From positions 1,096,001 through 1,160,000 of the forward strand of contig NZ_CP053562.1 in NCBI RefSeq assembly GCF_002085925.2: a stretch of 64,000 bases of DNA, given 5' to 3'. The position numbers and the translations under genes are program-made. Below the pieces are notes generated by a model that worked only from the letters and a program-made list of their open reading frames with translations, made no database searches and was not told where the DNA came from. Shown in pieces: positions 4,348 through 29,110 of this stretch. Source of the DNA: Thioclava electrotropha (GTDB lineage Bacteria > Pseudomonadota > Alphaproteobacteria > Rhodobacterales > Rhodobacteraceae). Position 1 is the first letter of the stretch; the number at the start of each line of letters is the position of its first letter.

Positions 4348-4357
4348 CGTGATCACA
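4348..4357. promoter_or_regulatory. TGTGATCACA-type operator at the GntR gene
   Basis: CGTGATCACA, with the perfect palindrome GTGATCAC at 4349-4356, lies 8 bp before the GntR start codon. The same motif occurs as pairs upstream of sucC and sdhC. A site this close to the start would overlap the ribosome binding region or early transcript and suggests negative autoregulation (inference). Confidence 0.7.
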
Positions 4358-4365
4358 AAAAGCGC

Positions 4366-5022
4366 ATGACCACGATTTCCACACGTCCCATCGAGACCGC
4401 CGCCCATGATCGGCTCTACCGCGCCTTGCGCCAGCAGATCATGGTGGGGGAGTTGCTGCCGGGCACCGCGTTGACGCTGCGGGGTTTGGGCAAGCAATAC
4501 GGTGTCTCCATGACCCCCGCGCGCGAGGCGTTGCGGCGGCTGGTGGCGGAAGGGGCGCTGACGCTGTCGAGTTCGGGCCGCGTCGCCACGCCGGAACTGT
4601 CGAACGAGCGGATCGAGGAGCTGGCGGCGCTGCGCGCATTGATCGAGCCAGAGCTGTCCGCCCGCGCCCTACCGCGCGCCCACCTCGCACTGATCGATCG
4701 TCTCGGCGCGATCAACGTCGCCAATGCCGAGGCTGTCGCGAAGCAGGATGCGGTGGGCTACATCCGCACCAACCTCGAATTTCACCGCACGCTCTATCTG
4801 CGCGCGCAGGCGCCCGCGATGCTCGCGGTGATCGAAACCGTCTGGCTGCAGCTGGGGCCGACGATGCGCGCGGTCTACACCAAGCTGCAGCGCAACGAGC
4901 CGCCGCGCCACCACCGAATGATTCTCTCGGCTCTGCGGGCGGGCGACGAACCGGCGCTTCGATTGGCCGTGCGCACCGATGTGACCCAGGGTTTGCGCCA
5001 CCTAGCCCAGCGTGGCTGGTAA
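4366..5022 (+). CDS. akgR: GntR family (FadR/FCD-type) regulator, probable AkgR
   Basis: This 218-residue protein has an N-terminal winged helix-turn-helix of the GntR family (residues about 10-75: LYRALRQQIMVGELLPG, then YGVSMTPAREALRRLVAEG) and a C-terminal all-helical FCD ligand domain with the usual Asp/His metal-ligand pattern (for example NLEFHRTLY). A copy of the palindrome GTGATCAC immediately precedes the gene, and paired copies precede sucC and sdhC in this window. The GntR protein AkgR of Rhodobacter sphaeroides is known to activate TCA-cycle genes, so I propose this is its counterpart. The family call is firm. The AkgR identity rests on the operator pattern and could be refuted by orthology analysis. 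Confidence 0.75.
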   Translation: MTTISTRPIETAAHDRLYRALRQQIMVGELLPGTALTLRGLGKQYGVSMTPAREALRRLVAEGALTLSSSGRVATPELSNERIEELAALRALIEPELSARALPRAHLALIDRLGAINVANAEAVAKQDAVGYIRTNLEFHRTLYLRAQAPAMLAVIETVWLQLGPTMRAVYTKLQRNEPPRHHRMILSALRAGDEPALRLAVRTDVTQGLRHLAQRGW

Positions 5023-5071
5023 AACCGCCCCTTAAGCGATGCGTGAGGGGCATAAAAACGGCTTGGGCGAC

Positions 5072-5100
5072 TTGACGCGAGACGCCATTGCCCGTATTCC
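5072..5100 (+). promoter_or_regulatory. Possible rpmB promoter
   Basis: TTGACG at 5072-5077 matches a -35 box well. A weak -10 (TATTCC, 5095-5100) follows at 17-bp spacing, about 100 bp before rpmB. The -10 is poor, so this is tentative. Confidence 0.35.
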
Positions 5101-5204
5101 GCGCCAACAGATTTTCGGGCGCTGCCATGCGGCGCCTTCTCATGTTGGGGCCGGGCGCGCGATTCGCGTAACTTCGGCCAGGTAAGAAACGAAGGAAGAA
5201 TGCC

Positions 5205-5492
5205 ATGTCGCGCGTTTGCGAACTGACCGGCAAGGGCCCCACGACGGGCAACAAAGTGAGCCACGCGAACAACAAGTCGCGTCGTCGCTTCCTGCCGAAC
5301 CTGAACGATGTCTCCCTGATCTCGGACACCCTGGGCCAGAGCTTCAAGCTGCGCGTTTCCGCAGCCGGCCTGCGCTCGGTTGACCATCGCGGCGGTCTCG
5401 ACGCGTTCCTCGCCAAGGCGAAGGATGCAGAGCTGTCGGTGAATGCTCTGAAGATCAAGAAAGCGATCGCGAAAGCTCAGGCAGCCGCCTGA
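5205..5492 (+). CDS. rpmB: 50S ribosomal protein L28
   Basis: The 95-residue basic protein starts [20 protein letters not shown] and continues with [12 protein letters not shown], the conserved L28 signature for the large ribosomal subunit. The length is typical of alphaproteobacterial L28, which carries a C-terminal extension rich in Ala and Lys. A purine-rich ribosome binding site (AAGGAAG) precedes the ATG. The gene stands alone, with a strong terminator 23 bp after the stop codon. Confidence 0.97.
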
Positions 5493-5515
5493 TCCTTTCC
5501 GGATCCAAAGTTACG

Positions 5516-5545
5516 AAAACCCCGCGCTTCGGCGCGGGGTTTTTG
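5516..5545 (+). terminator. Intrinsic terminator of rpmB
   Basis: A 12-bp perfect stem (AAAACCCCGCGC with GCGCGGGGTTTT) is closed by a TTCG tetraloop and runs directly into a T tract. Confidence 0.95.
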
Positions 5546-5595
5546 CTTGTGCGGAGCGATCTGCCATATTTCCCTCCCTGCGTCGTCACGCTAGT

Positions 5596-5958
5596 GTGAG
5601 CGCCATGTGGAGGACGCGCTTCAAGCTGCCAATCGGGATCGCCGCGGCGCTCATGCTGGCCATGACCAGCATGACGATGGCGGTCGCACGCGGTCAGGCG
5701 CGCGTCGCGGGCGAGGTGGTGCTCTGCACCGGCTACGGCGTGACCACGGTCAGCGTCGATGCCGAGGGCAATCCGACCGGTCCCGCCCATATCTGCCCCG
5801 ACATGGTTCTGGCGATGATGGCCGCCGTCGCGCTCGCGCCGGCTCTACCGACACCGCCGAAGGGCGAGGGGCGCAGCGTCGAGACGGTCGAGCCCGAGAC
5901 CGCGCAGGCGCAGGCCGTCGTGGTGCCGCGCGCCCGCGGACCGCCCATGCCCGTCTGA
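5596..5958 (+). CDS. Small secreted protein, DUF2946-like, beside a copper chaperone
   Basis: This 120-residue protein has a hydrophobic signal-like segment (residues about 10-30, LPIGIAAALMLAMTSM), two cysteines in the mature region (VLCTGYG and HICPDM), and a Pro/Val/Ala-rich tail. The pattern resembles DUF2946 proteins, which are often found beside periplasmic copper handling genes. The next gene, 39 bp downstream, is a PCu(A)C chaperone, so a role in copper delivery is plausible. The start may be the GTG at 5596 or the ATG at 5605. The family assignment is from memory of the pattern and is moderate. Confidence 0.6.
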   Translation: MSAMWRTRFKLPIGIAAALMLAMTSMTMAVARGQARVAGEVVLCTGYGVTTVSVDAEGNPTGPAHICPDMVLAMMAAVALAPALPTPPKGEGRSVETVEPETAQAQAVVVPRARGPPMPV

Positions 5959-5997
5959 CCCCAAGCTTTCAGACGAACACACCCACAGGAGACGCAA

Positions 5998-6558
5998 ATG
6001 ATCCGCAAATACCTGATGAGCGCGGCGCTGATCGCCGCAGCTCTCCCCGCCTTCGCCGCCGAGCCGATCCAGATCCTCGACCCCTATGTTCGGGTCTCGA
6101 CCCCGATGTCGAAATCGGCGGCGGCCTTCATGGAGATCAAGAATATCTCCGATCTCGACGATCGCCTTCTCTCGGTCAGCTCGAACGTCGCCGCACGCGT
6201 CGAGCTGCACACCCACAAGCAAGGGCCGAATGGCGAGATGCAGATGCTCGAGGTCAAGGAAGGCTTCGAGATCCCCGCCAAGGGCGAGCATGTCCTGCAG
6301 CGCGGCGGCGATCACGTCATGTTCATGGGACTGAACCAGCCGCTCCACCAAGGCGACATGGTCACACTCAACCTGCGCTTCGAGAAGACGGGGCTGATGG
6401 TCGTGGACATCCCGGTCGATCTGAGCCGCGATCAGCCCGCCGCGGCAACGCCGGAGAGTGCACCGGTCGCCGATCCGCAGATTTCACATGAAGACATGAC
6501 CCACGGGGAGCCCGAGCATACCGAGCCCACGATGGACAAGAAAGAAAGCGATATGTGA
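5998..6558 (+). CDS. Periplasmic PCu(A)C copper chaperone
   Basis: A signal peptide (MIRKYLMSAALIAAALPAFA, residues 1-20) precedes a PCu(A)C domain that carries copper to the CuA or CuB site of cytochrome c oxidase. Candidate ligands are visible: His71 and His73, Met81 and Met83, then His106 and Met108 in GGDHVMFMG. After about residue 140 the protein has an extra tail of about 45 residues with several His and Met (HEDMTHGEPEHTEPTM), which may bind additional metal; many family members lack it. It probably forms an operon with the small secreted protein upstream. Length is 186 residues. Confidence 0.9.
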   Translation: MIRKYLMSAALIAAALPAFAAEPIQILDPYVRVSTPMSKSAAAFMEIKNISDLDDRLLSVSSNVAARVELHTHKQGPNGEMQMLEVKEGFEIPAKGEHVLQRGGDHVMFMGLNQPLHQGDMVTLNLRFEKTGLMVVDIPVDLSRDQPAAATPESAPVADPQISHEDMTHGEPEHTEPTMDKKESDM

Positions 6559-6580
6559 GCGGGGCCGGGCAGGGCGGCGC

Positions 6581-7567
6581 TCAGCCGCCCAACTGCTCCA
6601 GCATCTCGGCTGCGGCCGCCGAGGCCGCGCTCTCGCCGCTGGCCACGGCATCGCCCAATTCGCGCATCTTGGCGCGGATCTCCGGGTCCTGGCGCAGCCG
6701 CGCAAGAAGCCCCTCGCGCACTTCGGCCTCGAACCAGTGCCGCGCCTGCTCTGCCCGGCGCTGATCGAAATGCCCGTTCGCGCGCCGCCATTCGGCCAGC
6801 GCGGTCATCTCGTCCCAGGCCTTCTCCAGCCCGTTCTCTTCCATCGCCGAGACCGGCAGCGCCTTGGGGAACCCTTCGGGGTCCTGAGGCCGCTTGCGCA
6901 ACAGCCGCAGCGCGCCCGCGTAATCCGAGACCGTCCGCATCGCGGCCGGTTTCAGATCGCCATCGGCCTTGTTCACCAAGATCAGGTCGGCCATCTCCAT
7001 GATGCCGCGCTTAACGCCCTGCAGCTCGTCGCCGCCAGCCGGGGCCATCAGCAGCACGAACAGATCCACCATCTCGGCCACCAGCGTCTCGGACTGGCCG
7101 ACGCCCACGGTCTCGATCAGCACCACGTCGAAGCCCGCCGCCTCGCACAGAGACACCGCCTCGCGGGTGCGCCGCGCGACGCCGCCCAGATGCGCCTGAG
7201 ACGGCGAGGGGCGGATAAAAGCATTGGGATCGCGCGACAGGCGCTCCATCCGGGTCTTGTCGCCGAGGATCGAGCCGCCTGAGCGCGCCGAGGACGGATC
7301 GACCGCGAGCACAGCGACCTTCAGCCCCTTCGCGGTCAGCATCATCCCGAAGGCTTCGATGAAGGTGGATTTGCCGACGCCCGGCGTGCCCGAAAGCCCG
7401 ATGCGCAGTGCCTGACGCCCTTCGCCCGCCAGCGTATCCAAGAGTTCGACCGCCTGCGCGCGATGCTCGGCCCGGCCCGATTCCACCAGCGTGATCGCGC
7501 GGGCCAAGGCGCGGCGATCGGAGGCCAGAATGCGCGGAGCGAGGTCGGCGGGGCTTTGTTTGGTCAT
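6581..7567 (-). CDS. meaB: MeaB/ArgK GTPase, methylmalonyl-CoA mutase chaperone
   Basis: The 328-residue protein contains a P-loop ([10 protein letters not shown], residues 59-68), the family motif [18 protein letters not shown], the switch segment ETVGVGQSE, and the guanine-specificity motif NKAD. These define the MeaB group of G3E GTPases, which protect and reactivate adenosylcobalamin-dependent mutases such as methylmalonyl-CoA and ethylmalonyl-CoA mutase. That suits the ethylmalonyl-CoA pathway genes elsewhere in the window. I chose the ATG at 7567 (MTKQSP); a longer frame from 7612 is possible. The mutase genes themselves are not in the window. Confidence 0.93.
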
Positions 7568-7697
7568 CGGCAGGCTTTCGCTGATTTTGGGTATTCGTGT
7601 CAAAAATGACATCAGACGTGAAGACTTAACGGTTACTTGCCTGCACCCTGCGACCTATGTCCAGAGCCAATGGGAAATTCCTGACACGAGGATGCCA

Positions 7698-8450: not shown

Positions 8451-8457
8451 GGGGCGG

Positions 8458-10908: not shown

Positions 10909-10980
10909 GCTATGCGCACCGCGCGGATTGACCCGACGGGAGGCTTTCGCGCATATGGCCCGGGGCAACGAGGGAAAAAC

Positions 10981-11484: not shown

Positions 11485-11580
11485 GCTACGGCGCACTGAC
11501 GGGGTCTCGGCTCCGAAATTGCCCAGTCTTCTCGCGTAATACGAATGATGGGGAGATGAGCTCGACGACGTCGGGAAGCC

Positions 11581-12117: not shown

Positions 12118-12170
12118 CGGTTAGACCATGTCGTTGAAAAATGACAGAATAATAGCCGACCTTAACACGA

Positions 12171-12196: not shown

Positions 12197-12218
12197 GTTT
12201 TTCTTCGAGTGTTCCGCC

Positions 12219-13607
12219 TTACGCGTGGATCGCGCCGTCGCCGCAGGCGAGCGCGGCTTCGCGCACAGCCTCGGAGAAGGTCGGGTGGGCGTGGCAGGTC
12301 AGGGCCACATCCTGCGCCGAGGCGCCGAACTCCATCGCCACGCAGATCTCGTGGATCAGGTCGCCCGCGCCGGGGCCGATGATGTGGCAGCCGAGGATGC
12401 GGTCGGTTTCCTTATCGGCGATCAGCTTCACGAAGCCGTCCGACTGGAATACTGCCTTGGCGCGGCCATTGCCCATGAAGGAGAACTTGCCGACCTTGTA
12501 GGCGCGGCCGTCCTGCTTGAGCGCCTCTTCGGTCTGGCCCACCGAAGCGACTTCCGGGGTGGTGTAGATCACGCTCGGGATCACTTCGTAGTTCACGTGA
12601 CCATGCTTGCCCGCGATGACTTCGGCGACGGCCATGCCTTCGTCCTCGGCCTTGTGGGCGAGCATCGGGCCAGTGACCGCGTCGCCGATGGCGTAGATGC
12701 CCTTGGCCGAGGTCTGCCAATGCGCGTCGGTCTTCACCTGACCGCGCGGCAGCATCTCGACGCCGACGCCTTCGAGGCCCAGACCATCGGTATAGGGCTT
12801 GCGGCCGGTCGCGACGAGAACGGTCTCGGCTTCGATCGAGGCGTTGCTCTCATCCTTGCGCAGCTGGTAGTTCACCGTGGCCTTGCTGTTCTTCACGTCG
12901 ACGCCCTGCACGGCGGCGCCCATGACGAATTTCAGGCCCTGCTTGGACAGGATCTTCTGGAAGTTCTTGGAGACCTCGCCGTCCATGCCGGGGGTAATCG
13001 CGTCGAGATATTCCACGACGGTCACATCCGCGCCGAGACGGGCATAGACCGAACCCATTTCCAGACCGATGACGCCCGCACCGATGACGACCATCGACTT
13101 CGGGATCTTGTTCAGCGACAGCGCGCCGGTCGAGGTCACGACGGTTTTCTCGTCGATCTCGATGCCCGGCAGCGAGGAGGGCTCGGAGCCGGTGGCGATC
13201 ACGATGCTCTTGGCGTTATGGACGTCCTCGCCCACTTTCACCTTGCCGGCTTCCGGGATCGAGCCCCAGCCCTTGAGCCAGTCGATCTTGTTCTTCTTGA
13301 ACAGGAACTCGATGCCCTTGGTGTTGCCGTCGATGACTTCCTGCTTGTAGGTCAGCATTTGCTTCCAATCGACCGAAGGCGATTTGCCCTTCAGGCCCAT
13401 CTTGGCGAAGTTATGCTCGGCTTCGTGCAGCTGATGCGTGGCATGCAGCAGCGCCTTGGAGGGGATGCAGCCCACGTTGAGGCAGGTGCCGCCGAGGCTG
13501 TCACGGCCTTCGACACAGGCGGTTTTCAGGCCCAGCTGGGCGCAGCGGATGGCGCAGACATAGCCGCCCGGGCCGCCGCCGATCACGATCACATCATAGT
13601 CAGCCAT
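12219..13607 (-). CDS. lpdA: Dihydrolipoyl dehydrogenase (E3)
   Basis: This 462-residue flavoprotein has an N-terminal FAD Rossmann motif ([10 protein letters not shown]), the redox-active disulfide [13 protein letters not shown] (Cys42 and Cys47), a second dinucleotide motif for NAD ([17 protein letters not shown]), and the C-terminal catalytic [10 protein letters not shown]. It reoxidises the lipoyl groups of the E2 component and passes electrons to NAD. It ends the sucC-sucD-odhA-odhB-MAPEG-lpd run, so it most likely serves the 2-oxoglutarate dehydrogenase complex. A second E3 for pyruvate dehydrogenase may exist elsewhere. Confidence 0.98.
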
Positions 13608-14158: not shown

Positions 14159-15697
14159 TTACAGGTCCATCAGCAGGCGGCGCGGATCTTCCAGCGCTTC
14201 CTTGACGCGCACGAGGAAGGTCACGGCGCCTTTGCCGTCGACGATGCGGTGGTCGTAGCTGAGTGCGAGATACATCATCGGCTTGATGACGATCTGGCCG
14301 TTCTCGACCATCGGACGTTCCTGGATCTTGTGCATGCCGAGGATACCCGATTGCGGCGGGTTGAGGATCGGCGAGGACATCAGCGAGCCGTAGACGCCGC
14401 CGTTCGAGATGGTGAACGAACCGCCCTGCATCTCGGCCATCGAGAGTTTGCCGTCACGGGCGCGGGTGCCCATCTCGGCGATCGTCTTCTCGATCGACGC
14501 GAAGCTCATCTGGTCAGCATCGCGCACGACCGGAACGACGAGCCCGTTCGGGGTGCCCACGGCCACGCCCATGTGGACGTAGTTCTTGTAGACGACCTCG
14601 TTACCGTCGATCTCGGCGTTGACTTCCGGGACCTCTTTGAGCGCGTGGCAGCAGGCCTTCACGAAGAAGGACATGAAGCCGAGCTTCACGCCGTGCTTCT
14701 TGTTGAACAGGTCCTTGTACTCGTTGCGCAGGTTCATCACGCCCGACATGTCCACCTCGTTATAGGTGGTCAGCATCGCGGCGGTGTTCTGCGAATCCTT
14801 GAGGCGCTTGGCGATGGTCGCACGCAGGCGGGTCATCTTCACGCGCTCTTCGCGCGACGCGTCATCGGCATTGACCGGGCCGCGCGGCGCCTGCGAGGGC
14901 GTCGAGGCGACGTTGACCGACGCCTGCTTCGGAGCGTTTTCGGCCTTGGCCACGTCTTCCTTCATGATCCGGCCGTCTTTGCCAGACCCCTGAACGGAGG
15001 CCGGGTCGATACCCTTCTCGGCCATCAGCTTCTTGGCCGAAGGTGCATCCTCGACATCCTTGCCGCCCTTGCTACTGCTCTCGGCGGGGGCTTCGGATTT
15101 GGCCTCTTCCTTCGCGGGGGCGCTGTCGGAGGCGCCACCGCTCTCGCCTTCGGCGATCACGGCAAGCTTGGCCGAGGCATCGACGGTCGTGCCTTCTTCG
15201 GCGACGATCTCCTTGAGAACGCCAGCCGCGGGAGACGGCACTTCGACGGAGACCTTGTCGGTTTCCAGCTCGCAGAGCATCTCGTCGGCCGCGACCTTGT
15301 CGCCAACCTTCTTGAACCACGTCGACACAGTTGCCTCGGTGACCGATTCACCAAGGCTGGGCACCATCACGTCGGTCATTTTTCCCTCATTCGATTGGGG
15401 CTGTTGGGCGGGTTTTTCCGCCGGTTTGTCTTCTTTCTTCTTCGGCGCGGGGCTGGCGCCAGCCTCTTCGATCGTCGCGAGAAGCGCATCGACGCCGACG
15501 GTCTCGCCTTCGGCAGCCACGATCTCGCCAAGCGTACCGGCCGCGGGGCTCGGCACTTCGACGGTCACCTTGTCGGTTTCGAGCTCGCAGAGCATCTCAT
15601 CGGCGGCAACCGTGTCGCCGGGCTTCTTGAACCAGGTGGCGACGGTAGCTTCCGTGACGCTCTCGCCGAGCGTGGGAACGCGGACTTCAGTGGACAT
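14159..15697 (-). CDS. odhB: Dihydrolipoyl succinyltransferase (E2 of 2-oxoglutarate dehydrogenase) with two lipoyl domains
   Basis: This 512-residue protein has two near-identical lipoyl domains: residues about 2-77 with lipoyl-lysine K43 in ETDKVTVEV, and about 107-182 with K148 in ETDKVSVEV. They are joined by a Pro/Lys/Ala linker, followed by a peripheral-subunit-binding domain (about 215-250) and the catalytic acyltransferase domain with [12 protein letters not shown] near the C-terminus. E. coli SucB has only one lipoyl domain and about 405 residues. It starts 4 bp after the odhA stop with a good GGAGG site, so translation is probably coupled. Confidence 0.97.
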
Positions 15698-15701: not shown

Positions 15702-18659
15702 TCAACCCTCCAGTGCATCGTTGACGAGCGCGTCCTGCTCGGCCTTGTGGCGGCTTGCCAGACCCGTCGCGGGCGAGGCGGAAGCTGCACGGCCTGCATA
15801 GCGCGCACGGGCATGTTTCGCGTCGATCTTGGCGAGGACCCATTCGATATAGGGCTCGACGAAGAACCAAGCGCCTTGGTTCTTCGGCTCCTCTTGGCAC
15901 CAGACGATCTCGGCATTCTTGAAGCGGGTCAGCTCTTTGGTGACCGCCTGCGCGGGGAACGGGTAGAACTGTTCCAGACGCAGCAGGTAGACATCGTCGA
16001 GCCCACGCTCGTCGCGCTGTGCGAGCAGGTCGTAATAGACCTTGCCCGAGCACATCACGACGCGCTTGATCTTGTCGTCGGACTTCAGCTCCATATCCGA
16101 ATTGCCGCGCTGGGCGTCGTCCCACAGCACGCGGTGGAAGCTGGACCCGGTGGTGAAGTCTTCCGTGGTCGAGACCGCCTTGGGGTGACGCAGAAGCGAT
16201 TTCGGCGTCATCAGGATCAACGGTTTGCGGAAGTCGCGATGGATCTGGCGGCGCAGAATGTGGAAGTAGTTCGCCGGCGTCGTGCAGTTCGCGACGATCC
16301 AGTTATCTTCCGCCGACAGCTGCAGGAAACGCTCCAGACGGGCCGAGCTGTGCTCGGGTCCCTGACCTTCGAAACCGTGCGGCAGCAGGCAGACGAGGCC
16401 CGACATGCGCAGCCATTTCCGCTCGCCCGAGTTGATGAACTGGTCGAACATGATCTGCGCGCCGTTGGCGAAATCGCCGAACTGCGCTTCCCAGAGCGTC
16501 AGCGCCTTCGGTTCCGCCAGCGAGTAGCCGTATTCGAACCCGAGCACCGCGTATTCGCTGAGCATCGAGTCGATCACCTCGTAGCGGGCCTGACCCTCAC
16601 GGATGTTGTTCAGCGGATAGTAGCGGTCTTCGTTGTCCTGATTGACCAGCGCCGAGTGGCGCTGCGAGAAGGTGCCGCGGGTGGCATCCTGACCCGACAG
16701 ACGGACCGGGTAGCCCTCGGTCAGAAGCGAGCCGAAGGCCAGTGCCTCGGCGGTCGCCCAGTCGAAGCCCTTGCCGGTCTCGAGCATCTGCTTCTTGTTG
16801 TCGAGCAGACGCCCGACCGTCTTGTGCAGCGCGAATTTCTCGGGCGCGGTCACGAGCGCCTTGCCGACCTCTTCGAAGGTCTCGGGCGCGATCGCGGTGG
16901 TGCCGCGCTCGTATTCGCTCTTTTCCTGCTCCATGCCGGACCAGCGACCGTCGAGCCAGTCGGCCTTGTTCGGCTTGAAGACCTTGCCGGCTTCGAACTC
17001 CTCGTTGAGATGCGATTGGAACGAGGCTTTCATATCCTCGATCTCGCCCTCGGGGATCAGGCCGTCCGCCACGAGACGCTCGGTGTAGAGCTGCAGCGTC
17101 GTTTTGTGGGTCTTGATCGACTTGTACATCACCGGGTTGGTGAACATCGGCTCGTCGCCTTCGTTGTGACCGAAGCGGCGGTAGCAGAAGATGTCGATGA
17201 CCACGTCCTTGTGGAACTTCTGGCGGAACTCGGTCGCGACGCGGGCTGCGTGCACGACGGCCTCCGGATCGTCGCCGTTCACGTGGAAGATCGGAGCTTC
17301 CACCATCAGCGCGAGATCGGTCGGGTAGGGCGAGGTGCGCGAGAAGTGCGGCGCGGTCGTGAAGCCGATCTGGTTGTTCACGACGAGGTGGATCGTGCCG
17401 CCCGTGCGGTGGCCGCGAATGCCCGAGAGCTGGAAGCACTCGGCCACGACGCCCTGACCGGCGAAGGCCGCATCCCCGTGCAGCAGCACCGAGACGACCT
17501 TGGAGCGGTCCGAACGGTCGGCCAGCTGGTCCTGCTTGGCGCGGACCTTGCCGAGTGCGACCGGGTTCACCGCCTCGAGGTGCGAGGGGTTCGCGGTCAG
17601 CGACAGGTGGACCTTGTTGCCGTCGAACTCACGGTCGGCGGACGCGCCGAGGTGGTATTTCACGTCGCCGGAGCCGTCCACGTCCTCGGGTTTGAACGAT
17701 CCGCCCTGGAATTCGTGGAAGATCGCGCGGTAGGGCTTTTGCAGCACGTTGGCGAGGACCGAGAGGCGACCGCGGTGGGGCATGCCGACCACGACCTCTT
17801 GCAGGCCGAGCTGACCGCCACGCTTGATGATCTGCTCCATCGCGGGGATCAGCGCTTCGCCGCCATCAAGGCCGAACCGCTTGGTGCCCATGTATTTGAC
17901 GTGCAGGAACTTCTCGAACCCTTCCGCCTCGACGAGCTTGTTGAGGATCGCGCGGCGGCCGGTCTTGGTGAAGGTGATCTCCTTGCCGTAGCCTTCGATG
18001 CGCTCTTTCAACCAAGCCGATTGCTCGGGGTCGGAGATGTGCATGTATTGCAGCGCGAAGGTGCCGCAATAGGTGCGCTTCACGATATCCATGATCTGGC
18101 GCATCGAGGCGATCTCGAGGCCGAGCACGTTGTCGATGAAGATCGGGCGATCCATGTCGGCATCGGTGAAGCCGTAGCTCTTCGGATCGAGCTCCGGATG
18201 TTGACCGGTTTCGCGCATGTTCAGCGGGTCGAGATCGGCGGCGAGGTGGCCGCGGATACGGTAGGCGCGGATGATCATCAGCGCGCGGATCGAGTCCAGC
18301 ACGGCGCGTTTGACCGCGGCCTCATCGACCGGAACGCCAGCCTCGGCGGCCTTCTTCTTGATCTTGTCGCCAGCGGCCTTGCCCTCGGCAGGGGCGGCGG
18401 GCCATTCGCCGGTCAGCGCGGCGGTCAGGTCGTCGGCAACCACCGGCGGCCAGTCACGACGCTCCCAGCTTGCGCCTTCGGCGGATTTCTTCACGTCCTG
18501 ATCGGGATCACCGAGCGAGGCGAAGAAGGCAGCCCAGGCGGTATCGACCGAAGACGGATCTTCGGCGAACTTGGCATAGAGCTGCTCGACATATTCGGCA
18601 TTCGCGCCTTGCAGGAACTGCGAGGCATTGAACTGGTCGTTGGGGGATTGGTCGGTCAT
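15702..18659 (-). CDS. odhA: 2-oxoglutarate dehydrogenase E1 component
   Basis: This 985-residue thiamine-diphosphate enzyme decarboxylates 2-oxoglutarate and succinylates the lipoyl groups of E2. It shows the E1 N-terminal segment (NAEYVEQLYAKFAEDPSSVD), the HRGRLSVLANV motif, the ThDP/metal-binding GDAAFAGQGVVAE and NNQIGFTT, and the C-terminal transketolase domain (LPHGFEGQGPEHSSARLERF). I chose the ATG at 18659 (MTDQSP), preceded by GGTGAGGA; an ATG three codons earlier is less likely. A gap of about 550 bp separates it from sucD, so it may have a promoter of its own. Confidence 0.98.
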   Translation of the reverse strand: MTDQSPNDQFNASQFLQGANAEYVEQLYAKFAEDPSSVDTAWAAFFASLGDPDQDVKKSAEGASWERRDWPPVVADDLTAALTGEWPAAPAEGKAAGDKIKKKAAEAGVPVDEAAVKRAVLDSIRALMIIRAYRIRGHLAADLDPLNMRETGQHPELDPKSYGFTDADMDRPIFIDNVLGLEIASMRQIMDIVKRTYCGTFALQYMHISDPEQSAWLKERIEGYGKEITFTKTGRRAILNKLVEAEGFEKFLHVKYMGTKRFGLDGGEALIPAMEQIIKRGGQLGLQEVVVGMPHRGRLSVLANVLQKPYRAIFHEFQGGSFKPEDVDGSGDVKYHLGASADREFDGNKVHLSLTANPSHLEAVNPVALGKVRAKQDQLADRSDRSKVVSVLLHGDAAFAGQGVVAECFQLSGIRGHRTGGTIHLVVNNQIGFTTAPHFSRTSPYPTDLALMVEAPIFHVNGDDPEAVVHAARVATEFRQKFHKDVVIDIFCYRRFGHNEGDEPMFTNPVMYKSIKTHKTTLQLYTERLVADGLIPEGEIEDMKASFQSHLNEEFEAGKVFKPNKADWLDGRWSGMEQEKSEYERGTTAIAPETFEEVGKALVTAPEKFALHKTVGRLLDNKKQMLETGKGFDWATAEALAFGSLLTEGYPVRLSGQDATRGTFSQRHSALVNQDNEDRYYPLNNIREGQARYEVIDSMLSEYAVLGFEYGYSLAEPKALTLWEAQFGDFANGAQIMFDQFINSGERKWLRMSGLVCLLPHGFEGQGPEHSSARLERFLQLSAEDNWIVANCTTPANYFHILRRQIHRDFRKPLILMTPKSLLRHPKAVSTTEDFTTGSSFHRVLWDDAQRGNSDMELKSDDKIKRVVMCSGKVYYDLLAQRDERGLDDVYLLRLEQFYPFPAQAVTKELTRFKNAEIVWCQEEPKNQGAWFFVEPYIEWVLAKIDAKHARARYAGRAASASPATGLASRHKAEQDALVNDALEG

Positions 18660-18710
18660 TTTCCTCACCTTCGGTCGGTGAAACAGGGATCTGTGGAACT
18701 CGAACGTCTA

Positions 18711-19211: not shown

Positions 19212-20099
19212 TTATTCGCCCTTGATCGCTTTCATCACAGCTTCGCCCAGCGTAGCGGGGCTGTCTGCGACGACGATACCAGCCGATTTCATGGCTTCGA
19301 TCTTCGATTCCGCATCGCCCTTGCCGCCCGCGACGATCGCGCCGGCGTGGCCCATGCGACGGCCGGGAGGGGCCGTGCGGCCAGCGATGAAGCCAGCGGT
19401 CGGCTTCCAGCGACCTTTTTTCTTCTGCTCGGCGAGGAATTCCGCGGCTTCTTCTTCCGCCGAACCACCGATCTCACCGATCATGATGATCGATTCCGTT
19501 TCCGGATCGTCGAGGAACATGTCGAGCACGTCGATATGCTCGGTGCCCTTGATCGGGTCACCGCCGATGCCGACGGCCGAGGACTGGCCCAGACCCATAT
19601 CGGTGGTCTGCTTGACCGCCTCGTAGGTCAGCGTGCCCGAACGCGACACGACGCCGACCGAACCACGCTTGTGGATGTGGCCGGGCATGATGCCGATCTT
19701 GCAGGCGTCGGGCGTGATGACACCAGGGCAGTTCGGGCCGATCAGACGCGACTTGGAGTCGATCAGCGCGCGCTTGACCTTCATCATGTCGAGGACCGGG
19801 ATGCCCTCGGTGATGCAGACGATCAGCTCCATTTCCGCGTCGATCGCTTCGAGGATCGAGTCAGCCGCGAAGGGCGGCGGAACGTAGATCACCGAGGCGT
19901 TCGCTTCGGTCTTGGCTTTCGCCTCGTGGACCGAGTTGAAGACCGGCAGGCCGAGATGCTCTTGGCCGCCTTTGCCGGGCGTCACGCCGCCGACCATCTT
20001 GGTGCCGTACGCGATTGCCTGCTCGGAGTGGAAGGTGCCCTGCGAGCCGGTGAAGCCCTGGCAGATGACCTTGGTGTTTTCGTTGACGAGAACTGCCAT
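19212..20099 (-). CDS. sucD: Succinyl-CoA synthetase alpha subunit
   Basis: The 295-residue subunit has the CoA-binding Rossmann start ([19 protein letters not shown]), GGVTPGKGG, the conserved [10 protein letters not shown], and the active-site histidine region [19 protein letters not shown] (here [16 protein letters not shown]), where the histidine is transiently phosphorylated. With SucC it converts succinyl-CoA to succinate while making a nucleoside triphosphate. It begins 5 bp after the sucC stop, so the two are coupled. An unusually long gap of about 550 bp separates it from odhA. Confidence 0.98.
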
Positions 20100-20104: not shown

Positions 20105-21298
20105 TTAGCCTTTCACCGCTTTGACGATTTTTTCTGCGCCATCCGACAGGTTGTCGGCGGCGATGACGTTCAGGCCGGAATTCGCGATGATTTCCTTGCC
20201 TTTTTCGACGTTGGTGCCCTCGAGGCGGACGACCAGCGGCACTTCGAGGCCGACTTCCTTCACCGCAGCGATCACGCCTTCGGCGATGATGTCGCAGCGC
20301 ATGATGCCGCCGAAGATGTTCACGAGGATACCTTTGACGTTTTTGTCCGAGGTGATGATCTTGAACGCTTCGGTCACTTTCTCTTTCGTGGCGCCACCGC
20401 CAACGTCGAGGAAGTTCGCCGGTTCCGCACCGTAGAGCTTGATGATGTCCATCGTGGCCATTGCGAGGCCCGCGCCGTTCACCATGCAGCCGATCTCACC
20501 ATCGAGCGCGATGTAGTTGAGGTCGTATTTCGACGCTTCGAGCTCTTTACTGTCTTCTTCGGTCTCGTCGCGCAGGGCGGCGATGTCCGAGTGACGGTAG
20601 ACGGCGTTGCCGTCGAAGCCGAGCTTGGCGTCGAGAACCTTCAGGTTGCCGTCGGTCATGACGATCAGCGGGTTGATCTCGAGCATCTCCATGTCCTTCT
20701 CGACGAAGGCTTGGTAGAGCTTGCCGAGAAGGCCGACCATCTGCTTCACCTGCGGGCCTTCGAGGCCGAGCGAGAAGGCGACGCGGCGACCGTGGAACGG
20801 CTGGTAGCCGGTGGCCGGGTCGATCGAGAAGCTGAGGATTTTCTCGGGCGTGTTCGCCGCGACTTCCTCGATGTCCATGCCTCCTTCGGTCGAGGAAACG
20901 ATCGAGACGCGCGAGGTCACGCGGTCGACGAGCAGCGCGAGATACAGTTCGCGCTCGATGTCGGAGCCGTCTTCGATGTAGACGCGGTTGACCTGCTTGC
21001 CCGCCGGGCCGGTCTGGTGCGTCACGAGCGTCTTGCCGAGCATCTGCTTGGCGAGCGTTTCAGCCTCTTCGACCGATTTGGCGAGGCGGACACCGCCCTT
21101 TTCGCCGGCTTCGGCTTCCTTGAAGTGGCCCTTGCCGCGACCGCCGGCGTGGATCTGCGCCTTGACGACCCAGAGCGGACCATCGAGTTCGCTGGCTGCG
21201 GTCTTCGCTTCTTCGGCCTTGAGGACGACACGGCCGTCAGAGACCGGTGCGCCATAGCTCTTGAGAAGCTGTTTGGCCTGATATTCGTGGATATTCAT
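20105..21298 (-). CDS. sucC: Succinyl-CoA synthetase beta subunit
   Basis: This 397-residue subunit starts [16 protein letters not shown] and has the ATP-grasp nucleotide-binding region ([15 protein letters not shown]) and the C-terminal CoA ligase fold ([15 protein letters not shown]). I chose the ATG at 21298, the standard SucC N-terminus; the five-residue extension from 21313 is unlikely. It is the first gene of the suc/odh run. A paired palindromic operator lies 110-140 bp upstream of the start, and a candidate promoter lies between. Confidence 0.98.
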
Positions 21299-21332
21299 CC
21301 TTGGATACCCCATGCTGGTGCGATTTGAGGGG

Positions 21333-21360
21333 GTTCTAGGCTGTTAAGCGGGGCGGACAA
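21333..21360 (-). promoter_or_regulatory. Candidate sucC promoter
   Basis: On the minus strand TTGTCC (21360-21355) and TAGAAC (21338-21333) are separated by 16 bp, a plausible sigma-70-type promoter. The leader to sucC would be about 28 nt. The paired operators would then lie about 86 and 107 bp upstream of the start site, a range suited to an activator. Confidence 0.45.
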
Positions 21361-21407
21361 ACCGAAATCGCGACATTCTGCCCCACTCGCCCGGAAAAAG
21401 CGACATA

Positions 21408-21438
21408 CGTGATCACAGCGCGGAAAGGTGTGATCACA
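21408..21438. promoter_or_regulatory. Paired TGTGATCACA operators upstream of sucC
   Basis: CGTGATCACA at 21408-21417 and the perfect palindrome TGTGATCACA at 21429-21438 have centres exactly 21 bp apart, two helical turns. The same pair with the same spacing lies upstream of sdhC, and a single copy precedes the GntR gene at 4366. This is the probable binding array of that regulator. Confidence 0.8.
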
Positions 21439-21533
21439 AATTGGAAAATGCTGCGCTGTGGCATGGGAGCACTGGCACGACTCGGTTAATTGAACCTATC
21501 TGCGCAGAGGGCATCGGCAGGGATCGAATTTAG

Positions 21534-22598
21534 ATGACGCAAGGGCAAGATATGCCGCGCTGGGGCGTGGTGGCGACGGTCGACGAGCCCGCGGCGCTGG
21601 TGGCCGCCTATGTCGCGCATCATCTGAGCATCGGCGCGAGCGAGGTCCACGTCTTCTTCGACCGCCCGAACCCCGAGGCCGAGGCGCTGCTCGCCCCGGT
21701 CGACGGCGCGTTCATTCACCATTCCGGCGATGACGACTGGGCGCGCAGCTGGCGCAAGAAACGCCCCGCGCGCCATCAGGGCCGCCAGAAATACAATGCG
21801 ACCCGCGCGCTGAACGAAACCAAGCTGGATTGGATGATCCATTGCGACGCGGACGAGTTCGTGAGCCTCGCGCGCCCGCTCGAATGGGAGCTGGCGAAGA
21901 CGGGCGAACAGAAAGCGTGGCTGCGTCTCGAAATGGACGAACGCTGCTATCTCGACCGCAACCCCGGCCCGGACATCTTTAGCGGTGTCTTTAGGCGACG
22001 CTGGGACGGGTTTCAGGAGGACGGGCTGATGTTCTACGGTCTCCGGTCGCGCTTTCTAAAGAAGGGCCTCGCGGGCCATGTCGCCGGAAAACCTGTCGTG
22101 CGGGCTGGGCGCGGCTATGCGATCGGGGTGCATTACCCGCTGAAAGACTGGGACAGCAAGGAAAACGATCTGCCTTATCGGCCCAGCTATAATGGTCGGC
22201 TGATGCATTTCGACGGGCTGACGCCGTTGCACTGCATCCTCAAGATGCTGCGTCGCGCGACGACGAAGGTGAAGGGCCAACCCGTGCCCTATGTCGGGTC
22301 CCGCAAGGCGCAATTCGCTGAGGCCGCTGAGCGCGCCGCCGATCCCGCCGAGCTGATGAGCCTCTGGTGGGAGGTGCAGGGGATGCGCGATTACGAGGCC
22401 GATGAGCTGGAAGCCCATGAGCTGCTGATCCGACCAGAAGTGAAAATAGCCGCCGAGACCCGCGCGCTGTTCGGTGACAAGGTCGATCTTTCGCTCGCCG
22501 CCTTCGATCGCGCGCTGCTTCTCCATGAGGCCGAACTGATCGCGCGGCTGCGCGAGGAGTTCGGTTTCGACCCGGAGCCGCTCGTCAGTTCAGCGTGA
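21534..22598 (+). CDS. Glycosyltransferase family 2-like protein
   Basis: This 354-residue protein opens with VVATVDEPAALVAAYVAHHL, a GT-A strand-helix start, and contains HCDADEF near residue 102, a DxD-type metal and sugar-nucleotide motif. This matches the Glyco_tranf_2_4 group common in Rhodobacterales, presumed to act on surface polysaccharides. The acceptor is unknown. It is divergent from sucC, so its promoter lies in the same 235-bp gap as the paired operators. Its 3' end overlaps the converging gene at 22585 by 14 bp. Confidence 0.8.
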   Translation: MTQGQDMPRWGVVATVDEPAALVAAYVAHHLSIGASEVHVFFDRPNPEAEALLAPVDGAFIHHSGDDDWARSWRKKRPARHQGRQKYNATRALNETKLDWMIHCDADEFVSLARPLEWELAKTGEQKAWLRLEMDERCYLDRNPGPDIFSGVFRRRWDGFQEDGLMFYGLRSRFLKKGLAGHVAGKPVVRAGRGYAIGVHYPLKDWDSKENDLPYRPSYNGRLMHFDGLTPLHCILKMLRRATTKVKGQPVPYVGSRKAQFAEAAERAADPAELMSLWWEVQGMRDYEADELEAHELLIRPEVKIAAETRALFGDKVDLSLAAFDRALLLHEAELIARLREEFGFDPEPLVSSA

Positions 22599-23844: not shown

Positions 23845-23852
23845 GGCACTCT

Positions 23853-23887
23853 CCAAAACAAAGGGCGCGCCAGTAAAGGCGCGCCCC
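23853..23887 (-). terminator. Intrinsic terminator of mdh
   Basis: GGGCGCGCC (23863-23871) and GGCGCGCCC (23878-23886) form a 9-bp stem around AGTAAA. On the minus strand this is followed by CTTTGTTTT. It lies 28 bp past the mdh stop. Confidence 0.85.
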
Positions 23888-23913
23888 AAGATTGGATCAG
23901 TCCTGTCTTTCGA

Positions 23914-25845
<1,932 letters not shown>

Positions 25846-25854
25846 GGGCGGCGC

Positions 25855-26187
25855 TTAGAGCGCCGCGTCCTTTTCCTTGAGCGTCCCGTCGAGCTCTTCG
25901 AATGCCTCGCCCGAAGCGATCAGGCAACTCACGCCATCCGCCGGTGTGACGATGATCGTCCAGTTGCCCGCCTCGGCTGCGAAGATCTCCAGCACGGAGT
26001 TGTTCGCGGAGAGCGCCACCATGCGGCGGCTCTCGTGATATTTCGCTTCGAGATTGGCCACGATCTCATCTCGCTTGCCGCAGGCGCGCGACGGATCAGA
26101 CGGGTCCCGCGTCTCTCCGTAAGAAGCTTGTGCGAAGCCGATCGCTGCGGCCAGGCCGAGCGTTAGCACATAAGTTTTGTTCAGCAT
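25855..26187 (-). CDS. Hypothetical small secreted protein
   Basis: This 110-residue protein has a signal peptide (YVLTLGLAAAIGFAQASYGE) and a mature part with two cysteines (RACGKRDEI and VSCLIASG). The segment NWTIIVTPADGVSCLIASGE is reminiscent of small conserved periplasmic proteins of Rhodobacterales, but I cannot name the family. The ATG at 26187 is preceded by GAGGGATC. It is divergent from the malyl-CoA thioesterase gene. Confidence 0.72.
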   Translation of the reverse strand: MLNKTYVLTLGLAAAIGFAQASYGETRDPSDPSRACGKRDEIVANLEAKYHESRRMVALSANNSVLEIFAAEAGNWTIIVTPADGVSCLIASGEAFEELDGTLKEKDAAL

Positions 26188-26277
26188 TTTGATCCCTCTG
26201 AGGTCATCATCAAAGAGTGACGGCCCAGCTGTCAAGAAAGCTTTACGTCGCGGCTCCGTATCGCTGAATGCTGTGAT

Positions 26278-26296
26278 TTTTCTGCGTTGCGGCAAA
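26278..26296. promoter_or_regulatory. TGC-rich palindrome upstream of the malyl-CoA thioesterase gene
   Basis: TTTTCTGCGTTGCGGCAAA differs in one base from the perfectly symmetric 19-mer TTTGCTGCGTTGCGGCAAA at 33051-33069. It lies between two divergent genes. The CTGC-n3-GC(G/A)G core resembles described binding sites of the polyhydroxyalkanoate regulator PhaR. The regulator is an inference. Confidence 0.5.
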
Positions 26297-26363
26297 TCTG
26301 GACTTGCCGATTCTGTCTCATTCGTGCGATTTGGCGAAAGAAAATTGCGAGATGGAGAATCAA

Positions 26364-27224
26364 ATGGCCTGCCCGACCCGTTCCGTGCTCTACATTCCCG
26401 GCTCGAAAGAGCGTGCGCTGGAGAAGGCCACCGGGCTTGCCTGCGACGCGATCATCTTCGATCTCGAGGACGCCGTGGCGATCGACGAGAAGGCCAATGC
26501 GCGCGCGCTGCTCGCGAAGACGCTGACCGAGGTCGATTACGGTCCGCGCATGAAGATCGTGCGGATCAACGGGCTCGACACCGAATGGGGGCGCGAGGAT
26601 GTGCTGGCCTTCGCCGACGCGATCCGCAACGGCGCCAAGGTCGATGCGATCCTGATCCCGAAGGTCTCGACCCCCGCCGATCTCGTCGAGGTGGCGGACC
26701 TGATTCAGGGCGTGCCGCTCTGGGCGATGATGGAGACCGCGCTGGGGATGCTCAACGCGGGCGATATCGCGGCCTATCCGCGGCTCGAAGGCATGGTGAT
26801 GGGCACAAACGATCTCGCGAAGGAGCTCGGGAGCCGTTTCCGCGCCGACCGTCTGCCGATGCTTCCGGGGCTGGGCCTGTGCCTGCTGGCCGCGAAAGCG
26901 CATGGCAAGATCATCGTCGACGGCGTCTATAATGCCTTCAAGGATGACGAGGGGCTCAAAGCCGAATGCGAGCAGGGCCGCGACATGGGCTTTGATGGCA
27001 AGACGCTGATCCACCCGGCGCAACTCGAGGTCTGCAATGCGGCGTTCGCGCCCTCCGAGGCCGAGATCGACCTCGCCCGACGTCAGATCGCTGCCTTCGA
27101 GGAAGCCGAGAAAGCGGGGCAGGGTGTCGCGGTCGTGGATGGAAAGATCGTCGAAAATCTGCATATCGTCACGGCGCGGCAAGTCCTCGCCAAGGCGGAG
27201 GCGATTGCCGCGCTTGGCAGCTAA
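26364..27224 (+). CDS. mcl2: CitE/HpcH-type (3S)-malyl-CoA thioesterase or lyase (Mcl2-like)
   Basis: The protein (about 286 residues) begins TRSVLYIPGSKERALEKATG and has the CitE-family signatures FDLEDAVAIDEK (metal ligand), RINGLDTEWGREDV, MMETALGM and GTNDLAKELG, then GKTLIHPAQLEVCN. In Rhodobacter sphaeroides a paralogue of this type, Mcl2, hydrolyses (3S)-malyl-CoA to malate and CoA in the ethylmalonyl-CoA pathway. The neighbouring mesaconyl-CoA hydratase gene supports the same assignment. The ATG at 26364 has GGAGA at good spacing; an ATG at 26352 is also possible. Lyase activity cannot be excluded from sequence. Confidence 0.85.
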   Translation: MACPTRSVLYIPGSKERALEKATGLACDAIIFDLEDAVAIDEKANARALLAKTLTEVDYGPRMKIVRINGLDTEWGREDVLAFADAIRNGAKVDAILIPKVSTPADLVEVADLIQGVPLWAMMETALGMLNAGDIAAYPRLEGMVMGTNDLAKELGSRFRADRLPMLPGLGLCLLAAKAHGKIIVDGVYNAFKDDEGLKAECEQGRDMGFDGKTLIHPAQLEVCNAAFAPSEAEIDLARRQIAAFEEAEKAGQGVAVVDGKIVENLHIVTARQVLAKAEAIAALGS

Positions 27225-27236
27225 GAGGCAATCGCA

Positions 27237-27788
27237 ATGGCACTACTCATCCTCGGCGTCCTGATCTGGTCGCTCGCACATCTGGCAAAACGGATCTTTC
27301 CGGGCTTCCGGCGCGCGCTCAAAGGGGCCGAGCGTCCGATGGTCGCCGCGCTTCTCCTGATCAGCCTCGTTCTGATGTTCGTCGGCTGGCGCGCCGCCGA
27401 TCCGGTCTTCTACCTCTGGACGCCGAACGCGGCGCTCAAGGGGATCAACAACCTGCTGATGATCTTCGCGGTCTACCTGTTCGCCGTTTCGGGCATGAAG
27501 CTCTGGCTCAGCGGCAAGATCCGTCACCCGCAGCTGACCGGCGTGAAGACCTGGGCCTTTGCGCACCTTCTGGTCAATCCGACCCTGCCGGGGATCATCC
27601 TGTTCGGCGGCCTGCTCGCCTGGGCGGTGGTCGAAGTCATCCTGATCAACAAGAAGTCGAAGCCCGCCAAGGTCACCCCCGAGGTGAAGATGGGCAAGGA
27701 GATCGGCGGGATCGTCGGCACGCTGGTCCTCTACGGCCTGATCGCCTCGATCCACTTCTGGTTCGGCCACAACCCGTTCGGAGCCTGA
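27237..27788 (+). CDS. NnrU family membrane protein
   Basis: This 183-residue membrane protein has about five hydrophobic segments and the NnrU pattern HLAKRIFPGFRRAL near the start, then IRHPQLTGVKTWAFAHLLVN. NnrU was first described next to nitric oxide reductase genes, but many members occur outside denitrification. Here it sits 12 bp after the malyl-CoA thioesterase gene and 1 bp before DUF1737, so it is part of that operon. Its role there is unknown. Confidence 0.85.
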   Translation: MALLILGVLIWSLAHLAKRIFPGFRRALKGAERPMVAALLLISLVLMFVGWRAADPVFYLWTPNAALKGINNLLMIFAVYLFAVSGMKLWLSGKIRHPQLTGVKTWAFAHLLVNPTLPGIILFGGLLAWAVVEVILINKKSKPAKVTPEVKMGKEIGGIVGTLVLYGLIASIHFWFGHNPFGA

Positions 27789-27789
27789 T

Positions 27790-27993
27790 ATGCAGATCTA
27801 CCGCCTTCTGACCGAGGAAGACACCTCGGCCTTCTGTCACAAGGTCAGCCGCGCGCTGTCCAAGGGCTGGGTGCTGTATGGCGATCCGCAATATGCCTAC
27901 GATCAGGCGAATGGCGTGATGCGCTGTGCCCAGGCCGTGACCAAAGAGATCGAGGGTGAGTATCACCCCGACATGAAGCTGGGAGAGCAATGA
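27790..27993 (+). CDS. DUF1737 domain small protein
   Basis: This 67-residue protein (MQIYRLLTEEDTSAFCHKVS, then SKGWVLYGDPQYAYD) matches DUF1737, a short single-domain family of unknown function. It lies one base after nnrU, and its stop codon overlaps the start codons of the mesaconyl-CoA hydratase gene, so translation of the two is probably coupled. Confidence 0.85.
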   Translation: MQIYRLLTEEDTSAFCHKVSRALSKGWVLYGDPQYAYDQANGVMRCAQAVTKEIEGEYHPDMKLGEQ

Positions 27994-29027
27994 TGGGCAA
28001 GACCAATCCGGGCCGTTTCTTCGAGGATTACAAGCTGGGCGACGTGATCCGTCACGCCGTCCCGCGCACCGTGGCAGAAGGGGAGCGCGCGCTCTATCAC
28101 GCGCTCTACCCGGCGCGCCATGCGCTCTATTCCTCGGACGAATTCGCGGCGGCCTGCGGATTGGAGGGCTCGCCCATCGACGATCTGATCGCCTTTCACG
28201 TCGTGTTCGGCAAGACCGTGCCGGATGTCTCGCTCAATGCGGTGGCCAATCTCGGCTATGCGGAAGGGCGCTGGCTGAAGCCGGTCTATCCGGGCGACAC
28301 GCTGCGCTCGGAGAGCGAGGTGATCGGGGTCAAGCAGAACTCCAACGGCAAGTCGGGCGTGGTCTATGTCCGCACCCGCGGGCTGAACCAAGTGGGCGAG
28401 ACCGTGCTGGAATATGTCCGCTGGGTGATGGTGCGCAAAGGCGATCTCGACGCCCCTGCGCCGGAGACGGTATTGCCCGATCTGGCATCGGTCGTGGCGC
28501 CTGCGGACCTGGTGATCCCGGAGGGGCTGAGCTTCGACGATTACGATTTCGATCTGGCGGGCGAGCCGCATCGCTGGGGCGATTACGAGATCGGCGAGAA
28601 GATCGACCATGTGGACGGCGTCACCATTGAGGAAGCCGAGCACATGATCGCCACGCGGCTGTGGCAGAACACCGCCAAGGTGCATTTCGACGCGACATTC
28701 CGCGAGGACGGCCAGCGTCTGATCTATGGCGGTCATGTGATCTCGATGGCCCGCGCGCTGTCCTTCAACGGGCTGGCGAACGCCCAGATGATCGTGGCGC
28801 TCAATGGCGGGGCGCATGCCAATCCCTGCTTCTCGGGCGATACGGTGAAGGCATGGTCGGAAGTACTCGACAAGGCGGAGACCGGCGCGCCCGGTGTGGG
28901 CGCGATCCGTCTGCGTCTGGTCGCCGTGAAGCAGGGCGCGCCCGAGTTCGCCTATAAGGGAGAAGACGGCAAATACCTGCCCGAGGTGCTGCTCGATCTC
29001 GACTACTGGGCACTGATGCCGATCTGA
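27990..29027 (+). CDS. mch: Mesaconyl-CoA hydratase (beta-methylmalyl-CoA dehydratase)
   Basis: This roughly 345-residue protein contains two MaoC-like hotdog halves: an N-terminal half beginning NPGRFFEDYKLGDVIRHAVP and a C-terminal half with HRWGDYEIGEKIDHVDGVTI and YGGHVISMARAL. Length and architecture match mesaconyl-C1-CoA hydratase, which interconverts mesaconyl-CoA and beta-methylmalyl-CoA in the ethylmalonyl-CoA pathway. The start is one of two adjacent ATGs (27990 or 27993) after GGGAGAG. It overlaps the DUF1737 stop codon and is followed by a GC-rich hairpin and the sdh regulatory region. Confidence 0.92.
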   Translation: MMGKTNPGRFFEDYKLGDVIRHAVPRTVAEGERALYHALYPARHALYSSDEFAAACGLEGSPIDDLIAFHVVFGKTVPDVSLNAVANLGYAEGRWLKPVYPGDTLRSESEVIGVKQNSNGKSGVVYVRTRGLNQVGETVLEYVRWVMVRKGDLDAPAPETVLPDLASVVAPADLVIPEGLSFDDYDFDLAGEPHRWGDYEIGEKIDHVDGVTIEEAEHMIATRLWQNTAKVHFDATFREDGQRLIYGGHVISMARALSFNGLANAQMIVALNGGAHANPCFSGDTVKAWSEVLDKAETGAPGVGAIRLRLVAVKQGAPEFAYKGEDGKYLPEVLLDLDYWALMPI

Positions 29028-29046
29028 ACCCGGCTCGAGAGACTCA

Positions 29047-29071
29047 CTCGCGGGGGCAGGGCGCCCGCGAG
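29047..29071 (+). terminator. GC-rich hairpin after mch
   Basis: CTCGCGGG and CCCGCGAG form an 8-bp perfect stem with a 9-base loop 20 bp past the mch stop. There is no T run, so it is either a weak terminator or an RNA-stabilising hairpin that insulates mch from sdh. Confidence 0.4.
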
Positions 29072-29079
29072 CGTTAACA

Positions 29080-29110
29080 TGTGATCACGCACAGAATTTA
29101 TGTGATCACA
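29080..29110. promoter_or_regulatory. Paired TGTGATCACA operators upstream of sdhC
   Basis: TGTGATCACG at 29080-29089 and the perfect palindrome TGTGATCACA at 29101-29110 have centres exactly 21 bp apart, as in the sucC region. The pair lies about 170-200 bp before sdhC. A GTTAAC palindrome adjoins it at 29073-29078. The probable ligand is the GntR regulator encoded at 4366. Confidence 0.82.

Follow-up and report, generated by a model that had tools for sequence, protein, structure and literature searches.

Results

Repeated sites ahead of gntR, sucC and sdhC

We analysed 64 kb of Thioclava electrotropha DNA (contig NZ_CP053562.1, positions 1,096,001 to 1,160,000; hereafter the window), in which the 8-mer GTGATCAC recurs as pairs ahead of two operons of the tricarboxylic acid (TCA) cycle, and singly ahead of gntR, the gene of a GntR-FCD regulator that is a probable orthologue of AkgR. 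Six exact copies were found, against 0.86 expected, and six were reached in none of 100 dinucleotide shuffles:

4349..4356, + strand: single operator GTGATCAC, 9 bases ahead of the gntR ATG; predicted autorepression site
21430..21437, - strand: distal operator of the sucC pair, exact GTGATCAC; conserved pair geometry
21409..21416, - strand: proximal operator of the sucC pair, exact GTGATCAC; conserved pair geometry
29081..29088, + strand: distal operator of the sdhC pair, exact GTGATCAC; conserved pair geometry
29102..29109, + strand: proximal operator of the sdhC pair, exact GTGATCAC; conserved pair geometry
29846..29853: sixth copy of GTGATCAC, inside sdhD

The two copies are 21 bp apart, i.e. 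two helical turns, in the sucC and the sdhC pair alike. An initial annotation of the window had placed all the named sites correctly, and we likewise recovered the identical spacing and the single further copy inside sdhD that it reported. The repeated 10-mer that it described, TGTGATCACA, stood in part: its 8-mer core is exact in all five named sites, but the full 10-mer is perfect in two only, the other three having one mismatch at an end. With up to two mismatches the 10-mer occurs 17 times in the window against 16.3 expected, and is thus in no excess over chance. The sdhD copy was rejected as a further operator, given that a copy is present in four of 52 sdhD genes (the window's included) at differing positions. 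Across the whole genome (4.4 Mb) there are 141 copies of the 8-mer, so that a lone copy carries little meaning (the first 100 of these 141 places were listed; the reversed-pattern control, with 2, contains CTAG and is a poor one). A scan of the genome for two copies 18-24 bp apart returned only the sucC and sdhC places.

The genes concerned are as follows:

4366..5022, + strand: gntR, GntR-FCD regulator, probable AkgR orthologue (Pfam GntR 2.8e-15, FCD 1.9e-16)
20105..21298, - strand: sucC (Pfam ATP-grasp_2, Ligase_CoA); start taken as the methionine of MNIHEYQ, the longer open reading frame running from 21313
19212..20099, - strand: sucD (Pfam CoA_binding, Ligase_CoA)
15702..18668, - strand: sucA, 2-oxoglutarate dehydrogenase E1
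14159..15697, - strand: sucB, dihydrolipoyl acyltransferase (Pfam 2-oxoacid_dh, Biotin_lipoyl, E3_binding)
12219..13607, - strand: putative lpd, lpd-like dihydrolipoyl dehydrogenase (Pfam Pyr_redox_2, Pyr_redox_dim)
29283..29672, + strand: sdhC (Pfam Sdh_cyt)
29684..30076, + strand: sdhD (Pfam Sdh_cyt)
30090..31895, + strand: sdhA (Pfam FAD_binding_2, Succ_DH_flav_C); the open reading frame opens at 30030, with an in-frame ATG at 30090
32200..32976, + strand: sdhB (Pfam Fer2_3 and Fer4 models)

The pair at 21409-21437 heads the minus-strand operon sucC-sucD-sucA-sucB-lpd, and that at 29081-29109 heads sdhC-D-A-B. A glycosyltransferase-like gene (21534-22598), divergent from sucC, borders the intergenic region that contains the sucC pair; a relative of it is present at some related loci only.

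We take AkgR to be RSP_0981 of Rhodobacter sphaeroides. Passages of PMC4344238 describe RSP_0981 as a GntR family protein and a predicted regulator of sucCD, sdh and the 2-oxoglutarate dehydrogenase genes, and passages of PMC6365646 list GTGATCAC among the AkgR binding sites and name AkgR an activator. The window protein belongs to the same family, the published operator motif (PMC6365646) occurs in the window, and the window sites front the sucC and sdhC operons, as expected from the AkgR targets (PMC4344238); the AkgR link drawn in the initial annotation fits what these passages say of targets and motif. Both regulon and motif are already known for AkgR, and the system itself is not new. The 21-bp paired geometry, the helical phasing and the triple arrays described below appear in none of the published AkgR and GntR passages searched; the original AkgR paper lay outside that search and may describe them.

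Conservation of the paired sites

In 295 genomes of the family Rhodobacteraceae, nearly one per genus, we searched for two copies of GTGATCAC separated by N10-16 (18-24 bp apart). Such a pair was present in 266 genomes, so the pattern is kept in most examined genera of the family, while a control with 24 wider spacings gave 39 of 295, some of them triple arrays. Among the 75 pair places listed, 67 had N13 (21 bp), six N12 and two N10. Our spacing figures rest on a less selected set of 91 placed pairs (56 at sucC, 35 at sdhC), of which 88 were 21 bp and three 20 bp apart; start-to-start spacings of 17-24 bp were scanned for this set, and loci L213, L214 and L216 came from an N13 pattern. Three further 20-bp pairs lie at sucC or sdhC (L238, L251, L258). 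In a larger set, 58 pairs lay ahead of sucC, 53 ahead of sdhC and six elsewhere; the choice of loci enriched it for sdhC, its class proportions are non-random in that most of the 20 added loci were picked as off the main distance to the promoter, whatever their phase, and these 20, like a few more, were obtained with N13 fixed in the pattern and have the 21-bp spacing by construction. These counts confirm that the pairs are real and far beyond chance. The initial annotation had named a lack of conservation of the pairs before suc and sdh as grounds for refuting its reading; checked across the family, this did not occur.

All of ten named genomes, among them Rhodobacter capsulatus DSM 1710, Roseobacter sp. 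MED193, Yoonia vestfoldensis SKA53 and Paracoccus sp. JM45, had pairs: nine had two, and R. capsulatus DSM 1710 one. One pair was placed per named genome, eight before sdhC and two (R. capsulatus, Yoonia) before sucC. Outside the family, an N13 pair was found in 2 of 332 genomes of the class. One of these lies inside a long open frame and the other (L211:992-1020) directly before a GntR-FCD gene whose product is 31% identical to the window regulator; the frame beside the latter pair is presumably TonB-receptor-like.

Third sites were also seen. Among 13 genomes listed with at least three pairs, G135, G191 and G285 carry an additional sucC site another 21 bp upstream of the pair, and in these triple arrays (L240, L246, L256) the two gene-nearest sites keep the usual distance to sucC. 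Two other genomes have a third site before sdhC, but at a different step: 32 bp in L277 and 13 bp in L279. Intergenic pairs about three turns apart were found away from sucC and sdhC (L274:1213-1251 and L275:1243-1281, both 31 bp; L276:1269-1306, 30 bp).

The six pairs elsewhere in the larger set front fumC (L053), sucA (L057) and the distant GntR gene (L211) or fall in open frames (L052, L161, L212). We discounted as chance the G044 pairs spaced 18 bp (L052, L161) and those of L212 and L241, all within long open frames. The 21-bp pair at L053:1501-1529 (G042) stands ahead of a fumC-like gene, one more TCA-cycle gene in the set, and that at L057:1501-1529 (G177) ahead of sucA and downstream of mdh. 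A 20-bp pair at L247:1501-1528 precedes a membrane-protein frame, which we take to resemble a queuosine-precursor transporter.

Co-occurrence of the pairs with the regulator gene

We compared the presence of a pair with that of a GntR match below 1e-60 in the 295 genomes, the cut-off having been set after inspection of the matches listed, a part of the total. Both were present in 259 genomes and neither in 23; seven had the pair only and six the GntR match only (Fisher P = 8e-23, or 4e-21 for genomes at least 90% complete, both values being inflated by shared descent). Two of the six genomes with GntR only (G040 and G291; loci L187 and L191) carry a near-pair ahead of sucC, spaced 21 bp and with a single mismatch; for the remaining four, the sequence ahead of sucC was unreadable. 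Among 20 regions upstream of sucC in genomes lacking GntR, the closest approach to a 21-bp pair had four mismatches in 16 positions (L192), and the rest had 5 to 7. The pairs thus tend to vanish along with the gntR gene, which supports the regulon of the GntR protein proposed in the initial annotation.

The protein itself is well conserved, with 87-100% identity in six Thioclava loci and 75-100% over the best 80 of 501 relatives, which served as our set of GntR relatives; it equals a Thioclava sp. JE_KL1 protein at 100% over 218 residues. In 81 sequences, 103 residues are at least 97% conserved, including N136, H140, H183 and D205 in the FCD domain. The usual FCD metal site is Asp-His-His-His, and the ligand site here may differ from it. 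By sequence, the best match with a solved structure was McbR (4p9f; E 2e-20), a protein of a different pathway.

Helical phasing of the pairs to predicted promoters

The core promoters of the two operons were predicted as follows:

21355..21360, - strand: predicted sucC -35, TTGTCC, starting ~52 bp from the proximal centre; T columns 47, 46 and 37 of 53
21333..21338, - strand: predicted sucC -10, TAGAAC, after a 16-bp spacer; column conservation weak
29168..29173, + strand: predicted sdhC -35, GTGACT, 62.5 bp from the proximal operator centre
29190..29195, + strand: predicted sdhC -10, TACTAA, after a 16-bp spacer

When aligned on the pair, sucC regions share a conserved run of T at a constant position, consistent with a -35 some 52 bp from the centre of the proximal operator and followed after N16 by a weakly conserved -10-like element; sdhC regions aligned in the same way share GTGAC[A/T]-N16-TA. 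Among 150 matches listed to this element, 125 lay at 61.5-64.5 bp, eight at 51.5-52.5, ten at 72.5-75.5 and seven elsewhere, strand and gene having been checked for only part of the rows in the main class. None of the off-phase seven (48.5, 58.5 twice, 59.5, 67.5 and 70.5 twice) is an sdhC promoter on the right strand: three are sucC pairs (G233, G146 (= L177) and G016) and the remaining four (G219, G005, G002, G003) read the opposite strand of pairs for which an in-phase match exists too. G192 (75.5) and G015 (72.5), first counted in phase, were dropped because the sdhC strand has no GTGAC there.

The final set comprised 72 sdhC pairs, with GTGAC[ACT] in range in 63. Nine of these elements lay at 51.5-52.5, 43 at 61.5-65.5, eight at 72.5-74.5 and three at 82.5-83.5 bp; when TA after N16 was also required, 53 of 53 lay at 52.5, 62.5-65.5, 72.5-74.5 or 82.5-83.5 bp. 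The sdhC classes thus centre near 52, 63, 73 and 83 bp, and sucC falls into the 52-bp class, a turn closer than the class seen most often at sdhC. The 19 off-main distances of an earlier set of 46 gave a best period of 10.4 bp, and none of 200,000 simulations was as regular, nor with only 11 events. The distances from pair to predicted sdhC -35 show helical phasing, as expected for an activator touching RNA polymerase. A quick SdhC-SdhD tree (45 rows) required 18 changes among the four distance classes; well-supported branches alone force fewer, namely 4, 5 and 2 for the three minor classes. Whole-turn shifts look frequent and separate, their number being rough.

A single site over the predicted gntR promoter

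The gntR upstream region has one predicted promoter element:

4331..4336, + strand: predicted gntR -35, TTGACC, its first base 18 bp upstream of the operator start; the operator would lie over the -10 region

An exact single site was present upstream of gntR in 66 of the 80 nearest relatives, with one mismatch in two more and absent from 12. It starts 11-21 bp before the inferred gntR start in 61 of the 66, and TTGAC precedes it in all 66, at 18 bp in 42, at 19 or 20 bp in 18 and at other distances in six. In the window (4331-4366), TTGAC overlaps the stop codon of an upstream YgjP-like gene. Since the site would cover the -10 region and the start would fall near the ATG, repression and a leaderless transcript are likely; the sequence arrangement suggests autorepression of gntR from this single site. 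The gntR site noted in the initial annotation is thus present and conserved, but autorepression at the core promoter is a better reading of it than one more activated target.

Discussion

The explanation that we consider very probable as a whole is that the sites are operators of an AkgR-like GntR-FCD protein, the pairs activating suc and sdh and the single site repressing gntR. Pairs and single site alike would be bound by the protein encoded at 4366-5022, which is the candidate ligand of the pairs. Ahead of both sucCD-sucAB-lpd and sdhCDAB, two dimers would lie side by side on one helix face at the 21-bp pair. Each pair, being in helical register with the -35 that follows at about 52 bp (suc) or 63 bp (sdh), would activate RNA polymerase. 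At gntR, one dimer on the single site would lie over the -10 and repress, and the regulator would so limit its own amount. Binding at the pairs is probably cooperative: the within-pair spacing is fixed near whole helical turns, as for cooperative tandem operators. That suc and sdh would be activated is what published AkgR work leads us to expect.

Related arrangements have been described. Like the protein proposed here, NanR of Escherichia coli has GntR-type dimers that bind neighbouring repeats cooperatively; unlike it, NanR is a repressor on GGTATA repeats, and passages of PMC8012715 ascribe its cooperativity to a 32-residue N-terminal extension, for which the window protein (218 residues, helix-turn-helix from residue 15) has little room. 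Passages of PMC4494728 report double sites of the FadR and HutC subfamilies that have a roughly constant distance and are likewise taken as cooperative, but these were studied in divergons, the constant-distance group with a regulator gene; GTGATC has no occurrence in the main text of that paper.

Several observations weigh against the activator explanation. Of the seven pair-bearing genomes that have no strong GntR match, G033, G096, G264 and G273 are only 73-77% complete, but incompleteness does not account for the missing match in G019 (91% complete), G114 (100%) and G256 (93%). A GTGAC element in range is missing from nine of the 72 sdhC upstream regions, and we disregarded two additional GTGAC copies that are out of phase (at 19.5 and 90.5 bp) and lack TA after N16. 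Both -35 and -10 elements were assigned by match to the consensus, and the promoter starts are predicted; counted from these starts, the proximal site would be at about -87 for suc and -97 for sdh, which differs from the usual CRP class I positions. On the tree, the distance classes cluster no better than shuffled labels do, which leaves the number of separate shifts uncertain.

We weighed four other accounts of the sites. Chance or a coding artefact can point to the 141 single copies genome-wide, but is refuted by conservation and has practically no probability left: the excess in the window, the 266 of 295 genomes against 39 of 295 for wider spacings and the 88 of 91 pairs at 21 bp all speak against it. 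It is unlikely, though to be taken seriously, that each pair is two independent sites with no dimer contact, the 21 bp being kept only so that both face the same side of RNA polymerase. This would suit the phasing, which holds from pair to -35 as well as within the pair, the one site at gntR and the 30-31 bp intergenic pairs of three genomes, though none of these stands at sucC or sdhC. Were phase the sole requirement, pairs one or three turns apart should turn up at suc and sdh as well, but among the spacings searched (17 bp and above, start to start) the within-pair spacing is nearly invariant where the promoter distance moves by about whole turns, and the third sucC site of three genomes is again 21 bp further up.

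The remaining two accounts concern who binds and to what effect. Many GntR-FCD proteins are repressors, and the GntR protein might sit on the pairs and keep suc and sdh repressed until released by an effector. We find this very improbable: the predicted core promoters begin well downstream of the sites, at a phased distance, and AkgR is called an activator in passages of PMC6365646. It is likewise very improbable that another transcription factor binds the pairs, gntR being merely a fellow target with one site. The seven pair-bearing genomes discussed above would fit such a factor, and GntR binding is itself predicted from sequence; but pairs and GntR are absent together, a pair stands before the distant GntR-FCD gene in another family, and the motif published for AkgR (passages of PMC6365646) is the one found here.

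Returning to the GntR-FCD protein as activator, a broader generalization has about an even chance of holding. AkgR-type regulators would use a 21-bp double operator, extendable to a triple one, and activate only when it faces RNA polymerase; the operator would have moved by whole turns many times, the regulator's own gene would be repressed from one core-promoter site, and the number and position of sites would set the sign of regulation. TCA-cycle control in the family is readable by one simple rule that can be scanned for in any genome. Helical-phase dependence of activators is usually shown with engineered insertions, and the whole-turn shifts offer an evolutionary test of it. They yield precise predictions for a GntR-FCD protein as an activator. 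The feature that merits testing is the 21-bp double operator together with the helical phasing of its distance to the promoter.

Apart from the regulon, a phage-integrase-family frame (1164-2780; Pfam PF00589) lies close to the window start.

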